A DNA stretch of 64,000 bases from Bryobacteraceae bacterium (GTDB taxonomy: Bacteria > Acidobacteriota > Terriglobia > Bryobacterales > Bryobacteraceae). The DNA lies in assembly GCA_026129905.1 (NCBI GenBank), contig JAHCHE010000010.1, positions 124,001 to 188,000 of the forward strand, in the 5' to 3' direction. A program made the translations under genes and the position numbers. The notes beneath the pieces were generated by a model, which saw only the letters and a program-made list of their open reading frames with translations, did not search any database and was not told the DNA's origin. This document shows, piece after piece, positions 12,582 to 17,059 of the stretch; the stretch's first letter is position 1; each line of letters starts with the position of its first letter.

Positions 12582-12665
12582 GGTGTAAAAAAGCTCTGAG
12601 GCGCGCGATAAGTGATTCGCCGTAGACCTTCACCCGCCAAAGCGGGGTCGGGCCGCGTGTCACGG

Positions 12666-12671
12666 CATAAT
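12666..12671 (+). promoter_or_regulatory. CATAAT -10 box close to the DUF362 start
   Basis: CATAAT ends 6 nt before the ATG at 12678, the same close spacing as at several other genes in this window, which suggests a leaderless transcript. Confidence 0.3.
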
Positions 12672-12677
12672 AGGGAC

Positions 12678-13874
12678 ATGCTTCGTCGTGATTTTCTTAT
12701 TCTTGCGGCGGCTTCGAAACTCGCCCGCGGGCAGCAGCCGCCGGCGGTGGAGGAATCCACCACCGCGTCGGCCACCGAAGACGCAACGCCGCGCGTCGCC
12801 ATTGTACCGTCGAGCTTCGACGGTTCCGAAGACCATGACGGGACGAACGTCGAAGGCTTGAAAAATCCCAAGCCGGTCGACGCGGACCTGAGCTACGAGG
12901 ACGTGGACGCCATGACCCGAAAGGCCATTGAAATCGGCGGAAGCCGGGACGGCGGCCTAAAGGCAATCATCGAACCCGACGATTGGGTGGTGATCAAGAC
13001 CAACATCGAAACATGCCACGGACTTGGGCCGGAGACGCAGGACGGCGGCGCCCACACGCCGTACATCCCCGGAACGGTCACCGATTTGAGGGTGATTCGA
13101 AGCCTATTGGGCTACATGGCCGACAACGGGCATGGACGCCGGTTTTCGATCGTGGAAGGCTCCGGAGAGTGGCTGCCGAAGGAGCGGTCGAAATCGCCCG
13201 TCGACGGCTGGACCACGGATTGGGGCGGCGCATTCGGCGGACTGACGTACGTGGCCATCGTCGAGGAGTTGACGAAGAAGTATCCGAAGCTGAAATTTGA
13301 GCTGATCGATCTGAATTTCGACCCCTCGCTGCCGGTCCCCGCGCCAGCGGGCGCCGCCGCCAAGCTGAACAAAGAAGGCATCTACCACGTACCGAAGACC
13401 ATTCAGGAATGCGACAAGCTGATCAGCGTCGCGCCGATGAAGACGCATCGCGAGATGGGCGCCGCGCTTTCCATCGCCAACTTTCTTGGCATCGCGCCGG
13501 GTTCGACGTACGGGTTTCCGAAGGAGAAGCTCATGAAGCTCGGGACGCCGGACGAACTGGCGGTGGACCTGTTTGGTTACCACCCGGCGGAGTTCGCGCT
13601 TGTGGGCGGCTGCTGGGGGATTGAAGGGGACGGTCCGGCGGCGCCCGGCGGCAAGAGCGTCCATTTCAACGTGGTGATCGCGGGCGGCAGCGCGTTGGCG
13701 GTAGACGCCGTGGCGTCATCGGTGATGGGTTTCGCGCCTAAGCAATTGAAATACTTGGATCTGGCGGAACTCAACGGGTTCGGGATCTGGGATACCGGCG
13801 CGATCTGGGTGAGGGGAAAGGAAATCGAGGAGGCACAGCGCCCCTTCGAGAAGCCTTCCGGCTGGAAAGCATAG
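12678..13874 (+). CDS. DUF362 domain protein, exported
   Basis: The 398-residue protein starts MLRRDFLILAAASKLARGQQP, a short twin-arginine or Sec-like signal. The body matches the DUF362 pattern (DDWVVIKTNIE, then ECDKLISVAPMKTHREMGAAL and SIANFLGIAPGSTYGFPKEK), a family with no settled activity that is common in secreted form in Acidobacteria and Planctomycetes. I moved the start 22 codons downstream of the longest frame because the signal sequence begins here and a CATAAT box sits 6 nt upstream. Its stop abuts the U-tract of an opposing candidate RNA. Confidence 0.75.
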   Translation: MLRRDFLILAAASKLARGQQPPAVEESTTASATEDATPRVAIVPSSFDGSEDHDGTNVEGLKNPKPVDADLSYEDVDAMTRKAIEIGGSRDGGLKAIIEPDDWVVIKTNIETCHGLGPETQDGGAHTPYIPGTVTDLRVIRSLLGYMADNGHGRRFSIVEGSGEWLPKERSKSPVDGWTTDWGGAFGGLTYVAIVEELTKKYPKLKFELIDLNFDPSLPVPAPAGAAAKLNKEGIYHVPKTIQECDKLISVAPMKTHREMGAALSIANFLGIAPGSTYGFPKEKLMKLGTPDELAVDLFGYHPAEFALVGGCWGIEGDGPAAPGGKSVHFNVVIAGGSALAVDAVASSVMGFAPKQLKYLDLAELNGFGIWDTGAIWVRGKEIEEAQRPFEKPSGWKA

Positions 13875-14013
13875 AAAAAAAGGAGCAGGGACATCCACTG
13901 AGGGTATGCCGTGGGCATGGAGGAGGTATGCCACAGCCGGGACGCCCCTGCTGGTGGAGTAACCGAACCAGAACCTTACCTGGTTCGGGGCTCAGCTACG
14001 CATTCTCGATTGT
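13875..14013 (-). ncRNA. Candidate small RNA with an anti-Shine-Dalgarno loop and intrinsic terminator
   Basis: On the minus strand, arms 13951-13940 and 13896-13885 pair over 12 bp using two G-U wobbles; the same arms on the plus strand would contain two A-C mismatches, which argues for minus-strand RNA. Seven U residues follow (13881-13875) after a 3-nt gap. Inside is a hairpin (13934-13911) whose loop is exactly ACCUCCUCC, complementary to a strong ribosome binding site. A separate perfect 9-bp hairpin (CCGAACCAG/CTGGTTCGG, 13988-13963) lies 5' of it. A possible promoter sits at 14020-14049. It could instead be an elaborate terminator for the SDR gene. I recognise no known RNA family. Confidence 0.4.
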
Positions 14014-14019
14014 TGCCTT

Positions 14020-14049
14020 ATGTTACAGCAAGTCCGCAGCCAATTGCAA
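14020..14049 (-). promoter_or_regulatory. Possible promoter of the candidate small RNA
   Basis: Minus-strand TTGCAA (14049-14044) and TAACAT (14025-14020) are 18 nt apart, each matching four of six consensus bases. The predicted start is near 14013. The surrounding sequence is clearly more AT-rich than the flanking genes. Confidence 0.3.
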
Positions 14050-14164
14050 TCACTTTGCGATTTAATGTAGAAGTTTCCGACAAGCTGTGGAAAAGTGCGG
14101 CATTTGCCCCTATCCCCGACCCAAGATGGTGGGTAACCCCCAAAAATGCCGAGTTCGAACCCCG

Positions 14165-14938
14165 TCAGATCGTCATCGCCAGGAAGCCGCCATCGACGCG
14201 GAGAATGGATCCGGTCACAAACGACGAGGCGCGTTCGGAAGCCAGATAGATGACGGCGCCGACCAACTCGCCGGCATCGCCGAAGCGGCCCATCGGCGTG
14301 TGGTTGATGATCTGCGCGGTCCGCTCCGGCGTTAGGAGTTTGCGGTTCTGTTCGGCGGGAAAGAAGCCCGGCACGATGGCATTGACCCGGACCTTTTGCG
14401 GCGCCCACTCGCGCGCCAGGAACTGCGTGATCTGGTTCACGCCGCCTTTGGCAACGCCGTAGGTAAACACCCTGGACAGCGGAGGTCCGGAAGAAACGGA
14501 AGAGATGTTGATTACGGCGCCGCCCCGGCCCGCGTCGATCATCGCCTTGCCGAAAATCTGGCAGCCGAGAAAGACGCTCGTCAAATCCACATCCAGGATG
14601 CGGCGCCATTCTTCTTCCGTAATCTCGAAGAACGGCGTCCCGGAGTTGATCCCAGCCGCGTTGATGAGGATATCGATGTGGCCATATTCGTTGAGGATAG
14701 CCGCCAGGGCCCGTTCGAGATCGTTTTTCCGGCTGGCGTCCGCCTGCGCCGCGAGGGCGCGGCCCCCGGCGGCGCGGATCGCTTGCGCCCGCGCTTCGGC
14801 CGCTTCCGCGTTGTAGTCGACCACGCAGATGCTCGCGCCGGCCTCTGCCAAGCCCATTGCCATCTCCCCGGCCAGGACGCCGCCTCCACCAACCACAGCG
14901 GCGACCTTCCCATTGAGGGAAAAAAGGTCTCGATACAT
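14165..14938 (-). CDS. Short-chain dehydrogenase/reductase
   Basis: The 257-residue protein has an SDR Rossmann fold: a glycine-rich nucleotide loop (VVGGGGVLAGEMAMGLAEAG), LINAAGINSGTPF, the Ser of VINISSVSSG and YGVAK as the catalytic Tyr-x3-Lys. The C-terminus SFVTGSILRVDGGFLAM is typical of the classical subfamily. The fold resembles sugar-acid oxidoreductases such as the D-mannonate group, but the substrate cannot be assigned. GGAGGAG precedes the ATG by about 10 nt. It reads towards the candidate small RNA. Confidence 0.88.
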   Translation of the reverse strand: MYRDLFSLNGKVAAVVGGGGVLAGEMAMGLAEAGASICVVDYNAEAAEARAQAIRAAGGRALAAQADASRKNDLERALAAILNEYGHIDILINAAGINSGTPFFEITEEEWRRILDVDLTSVFLGCQIFGKAMIDAGRGGAVINISSVSSGPPLSRVFTYGVAKGGVNQITQFLAREWAPQKVRVNAIVPGFFPAEQNRKLLTPERTAQIINHTPMGRFGDAGELVGAVIYLASERASSFVTGSILRVDGGFLAMTI

Positions 14939-15127: not shown

Positions 15128-17059
15128 ATGGCCACAGTGGATCGAAAGACGGTGGAAATGCGTGAAGCGGCGCGGCTTCTTGCTCTGGTAGAGGCGGAGC
15201 GCCGCTATTTTCAGGAGATTCTGGCGAACGTGCCTGCCGGGGTCGCGGTGATCGCGTCGGATCTGTCGTTCGTCGCGGTCAACCGTAAGTTCCGTTTGAT
15301 GTTCGGACTCCGGGCCGAGGACGCGTCGCGGTTATCGCTGGAAGCAGTGGCGGGCGGCGAGGATGTCCGGACAGCGATTCGGGAGGCCATCGAGACCGGA
15401 ACGGCGCGCCAGGTGGCGGGCGCCGTTCTCCTCGGGGGCGCCACGGAACGGCGGGCCACGCTGACGGTGCAGCCGCTGGCCGGCTGGTCGGAGGAAACGG
15501 GCCGGGAAGCCGTTCTGTTGGTCGAGGAACGGGAGGCCGAAGCGCCCGACGCCGGCGCCGCACGGACCGGAGAGGTTCCGGCGCTGCTATGGGAGCGCGA
15601 TCCGAAGACGCTGGACTTCGTATGGATCGGCGGGAGTCCCGACGCGCGGCTCGGTTTCTCCGAACAACAATGGCTGAGCCGGGACTTCCATCTCCGCCGC
15701 CTTCATCCTCGCGACCGGGCGTGGATGGATGAATACTACGCCAAAGCGGCGTCGCGTCCCGGCCCCGGCGCTTGCGAATTCCGGGGCGTGCGGTTCGACG
15801 GGCGCCAGGTGTGGCTGCGAGATTACTTTCAGGTCATCCCGGCGCCCGACGGCCAGCCGGCAAGGATCGTCGGCCTGACGGTGGACGCCGGCGAGCAGAA
15901 CGCCCGAAGGGCAATGACGATCCAGGCGGAGAAAATGGCCGCGATCGGGCGGCTGACGGGCCGCATCGCGCACGAATGCAAGAGCCTGGTGGCGGCGTTG
16001 GCTCGCTACGGCGGTGAATTCCTGTCCACGCTGCCCGCGGATCACCCGGCCCGGAAGGGCGCCGAGGAGCTGGCGCCGCCCACGGAACGTCTACTCGCCT
16101 TGACGGCCGAACTGATGCCCCTGACACGCTTGCCGGCCCTCCCGATGCAGCGGGTGGAGCTGAATGGACTGCTGACGGCTCTCAAAGACGAACTTGGAGG
16201 GGCGCTGGGACCGGACGTCAGGGCCGAGTTCGAACTCGGGGAAGAGGCAACGGTCATAGCGAACGCGGAGGCCCTCTCGAACAGCATTCGGGAGATCGCG
16301 GAGCAGATACGCGAGTGGTTGAGCGGCGGCGGGCGCATCTTGATATCCGCCGCCCCGGCGGAGTTCAACGAAGCCTGCGCGGCGCCGGGCGAAGGCGCCA
16401 GACCCCGCCGCTACATGCGCGTCACGCTGAGTTCGCGGGAAGTGGAACTGGACCACGAGACGCGGAGCGGTCTGTTCGAGCCGGGGTTTGCGGGCAGGCT
16501 CGGCCGGAAAGGCCTGACCGGCGCATATCAGGCGGTTCGGGCAATGGGTGGAGACGCGCTGATCGCCGACGGACCGGGGGGCGGAACCGAATTCTCGATC
16601 TACCTCCAAAGGGCTCAAGGCGAACCGGCGGCGGGAGCGGTGAACCACGAGGAGACGCCGCGGCCGAGGACGATCCTGGTGGTCGAGGATGAACCCGGCA
16701 TCAAGGCCCTGCTGCGCAAGGTCCTGCAAAAGCAGGGCTACACCGTGATTGAAGCCAGCGGCGGCGAGGAAGCGGTGCGGGTCGCCGATGACCACAAAGG
16801 ACCGATTCACCTGCTTGTGACCGACGTGGTGATGCCGCGGATCAACGGTTACGAGCTTGCATACCGGCTCCGGACAACAAGACCATATCTGCGGGTGTTG
16901 TTCGTTTCCGCTTACGGCGCCCACGACCTCGGCGCCTATGGGTCGGCCCCATCCGGCGCCGCTTTCCTCCAGAAGCCGTTCAGCCTGGCGGCGCTGGCGG
17001 AACGGGCGAAGGCGCTTCTGGCGGAAGGAGCGGCCAGCTTTCAAGCCTGGGCCATCTGA
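15128..17059 (+). CDS. Hybrid histidine kinase-like protein with degenerate catalytic domain
   Basis: The 643-residue soluble protein contains two PAS-like regions (about 20-130 and 150-255), a HisKA-like dimerisation segment with a candidate His near residue 282 (RIAHECKS), a HATPase_c-like region (about 340-505) and a C-terminal receiver (about 520-636). The receiver looks intact: VVEDEP acidic pair, phospho-acceptor Asp in LLVTDVVMP, Ser in VLFVSAYG and Lys in FLQKPF. In the ATPase region the N-box Asn is replaced (IAEQIREW) and the DxGxG box reads SREVELD, although GGGTEFSIYL is kept. ATP binding is therefore doubtful. Its 3' end overlaps the convergent isomerase gene by 19 nt. Confidence 0.8.
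   Translation: MATVDRKTVEMREAARLLALVEAERRYFQEILANVPAGVAVIASDLSFVAVNRKFRLMFGLRAEDASRLSLEAVAGGEDVRTAIREAIETGTARQVAGAVLLGGATERRATLTVQPLAGWSEETGREAVLLVEEREAEAPDAGAARTGEVPALLWERDPKTLDFVWIGGSPDARLGFSEQQWLSRDFHLRRLHPRDRAWMDEYYAKAASRPGPGACEFRGVRFDGRQVWLRDYFQVIPAPDGQPARIVGLTVDAGEQNARRAMTIQAEKMAAIGRLTGRIAHECKSLVAALARYGGEFLSTLPADHPARKGAEELAPPTERLLALTAELMPLTRLPALPMQRVELNGLLTALKDELGGALGPDVRAEFELGEEATVIANAEALSNSIREIAEQIREWLSGGGRILISAAPAEFNEACAAPGEGARPRRYMRVTLSSREVELDHETRSGLFEPGFAGRLGRKGLTGAYQAVRAMGGDALIADGPGGGTEFSIYLQRAQGEPAAGAVNHEETPRPRTILVVEDEPGIKALLRKVLQKQGYTVIEASGGEEAVRVADDHKGPIHLLVTDVVMPRINGYELAYRLRTTRPYLRVLFVSAYGAHDLGAYGSAPSGAAFLQKPFSLAALAERAKALLAEGAASFQAWAI

Follow-up and report, generated by a model that had tools for sequence, protein, structure and literature searches.

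A conserved candidate small RNA with an anti-Shine-Dalgarno hairpin loop in Bryobacteraceae

Background

The question raised by the locus described here is whether a short intergenic gap in a Bryobacteraceae genome holds a small RNA gene in its own right, and whether the C-rich loop of such an RNA would serve to cover the Shine-Dalgarno (SD) sequences of messenger RNAs. Regulation by small RNAs is little described in Acidobacteria, where an RNA that is conserved and whose pairing loop can be recognised would offer a concrete entry point; in the accessible part of one survey, the table of annotated small RNAs holds 4 distinct entries for Acidobacteria versus 345 for Proteobacteria (PMC9029176). 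RNAs with anti-SD motifs are known from other phyla. According to the available excerpts of one paper, alpha-r14/NfeR1 RNAs silence mRNAs at the translation start by means of such motifs, as established with reporter assays and seed mutants, and the RNAs of this "cuckoo" group present the invariant anti-SD motif CCUCCUCCC in unpaired hairpin regions, on stems that are very different in sequence; the same excerpts describe the anti-SD motifs of AbcR1/AbcR2 of rhizobia as similar to those of NfeR1 (PMC10746234). A second paper, likewise available in part, links CcsR1-4 of Rhodobacter sphaeroides to this group through the cuckoo paper that it cites, and describes them as four RNAs co-transcribed with a DUF1127 protein, a DUF1127 neighbour being frequent at CIN1 loci (PMC10253847). 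In Firmicutes, going by partial descriptions, RsaA and RsaE/RoxS carry C-rich stretches, and RsaA pairs with a Shine-Dalgarno sequence.

The window analysed in this study is a stretch of 64,000 nucleotides, in which a sequence-only reading had proposed a candidate small RNA on the minus strand at 13875-14013. We followed up this proposal by folding the element on both strands, by searching related genomes for homologs, and by comparing the pattern of conservation within the element with that of its surroundings.

Results

Locus and predicted anatomy

The element lies in an intergenic gap of 290 nt with convergent genes on either side. One is a DUF362 gene (12612-13874, plus strand; Pfam PF04015), whose stop codon directly abuts the U7 tract of the element, and the other a short-chain dehydrogenase (SDR) gene (14165-14938, minus strand; Pfam PF13561/PF00106), in whose 3' flank the RNA gene is found. 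The GGAGGAG that had been pointed out ahead of the SDR start is indeed present (14955-14949, minus strand), and is a possible target of the loop of the RNA.

Read on the minus strand, the predicted RNA is about 139 nt long; its 5' end would lie at 14013, give or take a few nucleotides, with a start predicted to read AACAAUCGAG, and its 3' end at the U-tract. It begins with the segment AAUCGAGAAUGCGUAG (14011-13996), unpaired down to 14000 in the minimum free energy (MFE) fold, and continues with hairpin 1 (13999-13959), two features that were missing from the original description. Hairpin 2 (13952-13884) has a closing stem of 13 bp, one more than first counted, in which 13952-13940 pairs with 13896-13884 and which includes the two G-U wobbles already recognised. 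Its inner stem (13937-13908) folds with 10 bp and one bulged nucleotide; the bulge had been read correctly, the length of 7 bp had not, and the 9-nt sequence ACCUCCUCC (13927-13919), which is complementary to Shine-Dalgarno sequences, makes up the whole loop, as proposed. The closing stem is followed by CC and then by the expected seven U (13881-13875), a terminator-like tail.

In agreement with the earlier view that recognised RNA families do not fit, a cmscan of the whole window against Rfam 15 at the gathering score gave two tRNAs only, and a search of 13600-14300 up to E = 10 added only sR49 and SAM-SAH, both far below threshold and outside the RNA. Rfam 15 includes alpha-r14, suhB, 6S and Acidobacteria motifs. 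A mobile or repeated element was considered and rejected: the element is single copy in its own genome, where the six other matches are 15-25 nt long with E of 2.2-7.8.

Homologs in two further genera

A DNA search of 101 genomes, including the window's own (G000), gave matches in three, i.e. the own genome, G055 and G012, of which G012 was dropped, its 25-nt match lying inside apparent coding DNA. In G055, which belongs to another genus of Bryobacteraceae, the complete element (L009 1389-1529) has a relative of the DUF362 gene on one side and one of the SDR gene on the other, and the 27 nt at 13986-14012, the 5' end of the RNA, are identical. A covariance model built on these two sequences (R1) and run over 237 family genomes yielded a third homolog in G204 (L074 1461-1597; 19.5 bits, E 0.04), which was accepted after reading its sequence. 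From the SDR stop codon to the start of the RNA core there are 154-160 nt in all three carriers (the window, G055 and G204). That stem and loop would be conserved in relatives was borne out in two further genera, at the same place, with a 9-nt loop containing CUCCUCC on stems of changed sequence.

By eye, a DUF362-like neighbour is also seen in G055, while G204 has a transporter-like gene instead, which we take to be EamA. Upstream of the SDR gene, the window has a PAS/response-regulator gene (15128-17059, plus strand) between the SDR gene and a TIM-barrel gene (PF01261); a similar TIM-barrel gene directly precedes the SDR gene in G055, and a similar PAS-type gene is found in G204, again by eye. 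As a separate observation, on the minus strand at 13992-14003 the 5' segment runs into AUG CGU AGC UGA (Met-Arg-Ser-stop) in both the window and G055, and the counterpart frame in G204 has nine codons; this might be a mini-ORF, with no Shine-Dalgarno sequence at the usual distance.

Fold and strand

The minus strand of 13875-14013 folds at -58.0 kcal/mol (z = -4.38), with none of 200 shuffles equally stable, and the plus strand reaches z = -2.42, with 5 of 200 shuffles equally stable. The minus strand of G055 alone forms the second hairpin with a 9-nt loop (z = -4.33; opposite strand, z = -1.08), and that of G204 has the same design, although its fold is unexceptional (z = -1.83; 10 of 200 shuffles equally stable, in a longer folded stretch). 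Hairpin 1 is a hairpin in all three folds, although its sequence is poorly conserved (identity 26-45%). Seven letters of the 5' segment are paired with the U-rich tail in the MFE fold of G055, and the segment is partly paired in that of G204 too.

These folds bear on the possibility that the plus strand is the functional one, encoding a CsrA/RsmA-type decoy with the loop GGAGGAGGU. GGA in hairpin loops is a CsrA-type binding site, the complementary loop does have a GGA, and, by complementarity, most of the window's inner stem could also form on the plus strand. The plus folds of the window and G055 are, however, less exceptional than the minus folds, and the plus MFE fold of the window pairs other letters around the GGA run. 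Moreover, the closing stem has two G-U pairs in the window and two in G055, at different positions, all of which become A-C on the plus strand, and the U-tract and the promoter-like block both belong to the minus strand, leaving the decoy a very improbable reading. The proposal that selection acts on the minus RNA, originally argued from the window's two A-C mismatches, is strengthened by G055, where the G-U positions, as in the window, pair on the minus strand only.

Changed stems around an invariant loop core

The 13 of 13 pairs of the closing stem are kept in G055, where two pairs have both partners changed and four have one partner changed; the closing stem of G204 is shorter and of other sequence. 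The inner stem, also of changed sequence, has 8 bp without a bulge in G055 and 10 bp with one bulge in G204. When the closing and inner stems of the window and G055 are taken together, 18 of 18 pairs form (both partners differ in two of them, one partner in five), versus 33-50% paired when the partner is slid by 1-3 columns; in the three-way inner stem, both partners differ in two pairs, and 86.7% of cells are paired, versus 30-40% when slid. In shuffle controls (133/500 for window-G055, 107/500 for the three-way inner stem) the covariation is not above shuffles and, with just two or three sequences, it is consistent support, not proof.

The loops themselves (ACCUCCUCC in the window, CACUCCUCC in G055 and UCCUCCUCC in G204, the next letter being A or G) are 78-89% identical over their 9 nt, with CUCCUCC invariant in three of three. 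ACCUCCU is the core of the 16S 3' end, and it is contained in the window loop, which, rather than pairing with mRNAs, might mimic that end and bind a ribosomal or RNA-binding protein, with the surrounding stem as a possible handle, or the RNA might be a sponge that sequesters other RNAs. The full ACCUCCU is nevertheless lost in both G055 and G204, and the part common to the three is CUCCUCC only; we hold mimicry of 16S rRNA, or action as a sponge, to be quite improbable.

Own start or SDR 3'UTR

Upstream of the predicted RNA, the promoter-like pair that had been placed at 14020-14049 on the minus strand exists, with TTGCAA (14049-14044), a spacer of 18 nt and TAACAT (14025-14020), but it is weak, and a consensus scanner that needs 9 of 12 lists no promoter in the region. 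TTGCAT and TAATAT are found nearby in G204, and all three carriers share an unchanged TTGCT ahead of the -10. With this weak block more conserved than the SDR 3'UTR across the three genera, an own transcription start seems likely on sequence grounds. We are unsure of the 3' end: the U-tract is U7 in the window, UUUUU in G055 and absent in G204, and a terminator scanner does not list the long-looped stem with its U7.

A different account would make the element part of the SDR mRNA, namely its 3'UTR with the terminator, from which a small RNA may be processed, without a separate promoter. In all three genomes it does follow the SDR stop at a distance of about 150 nt, its stem and U7 form a plausible terminator, and the promoter match is weak. 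The distribution of conservation, however, speaks against it. Pairwise identity in the SDR 3'UTR is 32-37% among the three carriers, and the 40 nt before the RNA exceed the rest of that UTR in every pair (55-58% versus 36-37% in the pairs with the window, 41% versus 32% for G055-G204). Identity then rises to 94-100% in the 5' segment (16/16 with G055, 15/16 with G204), and in hairpin 2 it is 48-70% in the 5' arm and 58-65% in the rest and beyond. The strongest conservation therefore falls in the 5' segment, over 100 nt ahead of the terminator; furthermore, G204 retains the loop and not the U-tract, and a terminator requires neither CUCCUCC nor the 5' segment. We regard an origin as SDR 3'UTR as unlikely, and transcription as mere read-through from the SDR gene, which the sequence-only reading had named as an alternative, is weakened by the conservation of those 40 nt.

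Rarity of the element

Accepted carriers number three of the 237 family genomes, in three genera. At E <= 1, R1 matched 40 places in 37 of the 237 genomes, 30 of which became loci, and among the 28 loci below the top two (25 read) the 5' segment and the loop occur together in G204 only. A 21-nt block with up to 3 mismatches matched 45 of the 237 genomes (about 30 for the reversed word) and is exact in G000 and G055 only. A gapped pattern matched five of 237 genomes (G000, G055, G204, G134 and G243); on reading, we accepted neither G243 nor G134, where the match is at a contig end beside apparent coding DNA. An exact 14-nt core was found in 12 of 399 class genomes, and in 4 for the reversed control; none of the nine besides the known three was accepted on reading, so that this sample gave no carrier from another family. 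A model of all three sequences (R2) gave 159.7, 149.1 and 136.4 bits for its own training sequences and 22.2 for the next match, and at E <= 0.5 it matched in 71 of 237 family genomes, from which 26 weaker places were read. Patterns of this kind would miss diverged 5' segments, and weak matches drop out of the model searches when large sets are run with stricter filters.

A close SDR gene is present in 67 of 237 family genomes, and the RNA stands behind 3 of the best 30 SDR loci, whose downstream flanks were examined over up to 450 nt (28 at full length, two cut by contig ends). Behind 80 named SDR loci no core with up to 2 mismatches occurs within 600 nt, some flanks being short; the 3' flanks of 23 of the 80 were read. 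We also built a tree of SDR proteins, 30 from the family plus one outgroup. The best tree requires three changes to account for the three carriers, and 0% of 200 bootstrap trees unite them, but only one change is forced by the well-supported branches. The tree is too poorly resolved to separate one origin with losses from transfer.

A second CUCCUCC hairpin and the chance rate

Weak R2 matches in the genus g44 led to a different element, with the stem GGCUGGGG/CCCCAGCC and CUCCUCC in its loop, which is single copy in G043, G205, G206, G207 and G208 (1501-1531/1532 of L286-L290). CUCCUCC is present in five of five loops while the adjacent loop letters vary; the stem is invariant, and hence without covariation signal. 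A stem-only pattern with any loop of 8-18 nt matched once in each of the five g44 genomes and nowhere in five further genomes of the family, the reversed control matching one place in G000. A model of the five g44 sequences (R3) gave 140-171 bits in the genomes it was built from and no more than 23.7 in the others of the family; at E <= 0.1 it matched 19 of 237 genomes, five of them g44, and none of the 13 read out of the 14 others was accepted, with CUCCUCC occurring in three of the read non-g44 places (L296, L301 and L304). The two RNAs are alike in having a -10-like element (TANAAT lies 84-87 nt from CUCCUCC in five of five g44 genomes; the distance is 94 nt in the window), a CUCCUCC hairpin loop and one copy per genome, but they have no common 5' segment, and stem and place differ. 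The g44 element is, as judged from its sequence, a second, apparently unrelated anti-SD RNA candidate, and the anti-SD device may have arisen twice in Bryobacteraceae.

Hairpins around such words are common under lenient rules: in sampled DNA, 0.7-3.5% of permuted C-rich 7-mers (six words) fall in a lenient hairpin of at least 10 bp. Hairpins of at least 10 bp around CUCCUCC were found in 17 of 345 unique contexts, or 9 without the eight that come from the two RNA families, and the opposite-strand GGAGGAG control gave 14 of 345, i.e. no enrichment. As CUCCUCC hairpins are not enriched overall, the argument rests on the two conserved cases. This background rate, together with the small number of carriers in the family, would suit a hairpin that arose by chance, or an inverted repeat at the level of the DNA, neither functioning as RNA; yet loop, 5' segment, design and place are all kept in three genera amid low identity. 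On account of this conservation in relatives we take the hairpin to be real beyond chance, an accidental origin to be extremely improbable, and the element to be, very probably, a real conserved structured RNA gene. A CUCCUCC hairpin at L244 of G204 lies inside an ORF.

Discussion

Proposed mode of action and targets

On balance, the element probably encodes a trans-acting small RNA in its own right, one that would mask the Shine-Dalgarno sequences of mRNAs and thereby repress them. What we infer in this model (transcription, exact ends, repression, targets and the role of the 5' segment) would run as follows. The minus-strand gene at 13875-14013 would be transcribed from the weak promoter at 14049-14020, and in the window genome the transcript would end at the stem with its U7. 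The second hairpin would keep the 9-nt loop open, the loop would initiate pairing with the Shine-Dalgarno region (GGAGGAG or GGAGG) of a target mRNA, and this pairing would block ribosome entry, while the 5' segment may add specificity as a second seed or serve as a binding site for a partner, for instance Hfq. The loop and the tested behaviour of NfeR1 both suggest that ribosome binding sites would be masked and translation repressed. Hfq is above the Pfam cut-off in five of five genomes queried, the three carriers included.

With the GGAGGAG of the SDR gene, the loop region forms a computed duplex of 8 bp (-14.9 kcal/mol), and the SDR gene is the only one of the 44 window ORFs of at least 200 aa with GGAGGAG before its start, the 5-nt core being found in 13 of the 44. 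Elsewhere, the Shine-Dalgarno sequence of the SDR gene is GAGGAG in G204 and none is seen in G055; with the match lacking in G055, a conserved role in feedback on the SDR gene is improbable. Near-complements of the 5' segment (up to 2 mismatches) number 24, 22 and 10 in G000, G055 and G204, versus 4, 4 and 3 when the word is reversed; common coding words presumably account for this excess. We read 55 of the 56 sites, including three that are the RNA gene itself, and saw none that is start-proximal in orthologs of all three genomes. One near-complement common to G000 (L284) and G055 (L262), at about position 1501, lies in coding sequence near the N-terminus of one gene, presumably YihY-like, and is possibly shared only through protein conservation.

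Relation to known anti-SD RNAs

As far as the available excerpts describe the cuckoo/alpha-r14 RNAs, the window RNA resembles them in carrying an anti-SD motif in an unpaired hairpin loop on variable stems, here with CUCCUCC in three of three. It differs from them in that the cuckoo motif is absent from all three loops and in having one motif hairpin per RNA rather than three, as well as by its other phylum, its conserved 5' segment and the lack of an Rfam match. In CcsR and AbcR, as in the cuckoo group, an anti-SD motif persists on changing stems; unlike the CcsR RNAs, to judge from the partial account of them, the window RNA is a single RNA behind an SDR gene, with DUF1127 in none of six neighbouring window proteins. 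AbcR1/AbcR2 share the anti-SD property, a likeness by (partial) description only, and the window RNA has no match to them in Rfam. RsaA and RsaE/RoxS, on the parts of their descriptions at hand, share the C-rich stretch, but they are Firmicutes RNAs, again without an Rfam match here. Both differ from the window RNA in sequence and structure.

The window RNA looks like a new RNA family of a known anti-SD type, and not like one of the cuckoo/alpha-r14 RNAs. In the open-licence literature searched, which leaves subscription journals mostly outside, no such RNA was described for Acidobacteria/Acidobacteriota. A recurrence of the same 7-nt loop on unrelated stems would make the convergent evolution of anti-SD repressors testable. 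Tentatively, and with rather more doubt than confidence, we raise the possibility that Bryobacteraceae evolved anti-SD hairpin RNAs at least twice, independently of the proteobacterial cuckoo RNAs; if true, the anti-SD loop would be a recurrent, convergent route to small-RNA repressors, and these RNAs would be, as far as our search reached, the first regulators of the kind in Acidobacteriota. As a further observation, CUCCUCC also lies in the loop of a strong GC-rich hairpin of G204, at L259 2826-2858, which appears to be intergenic.
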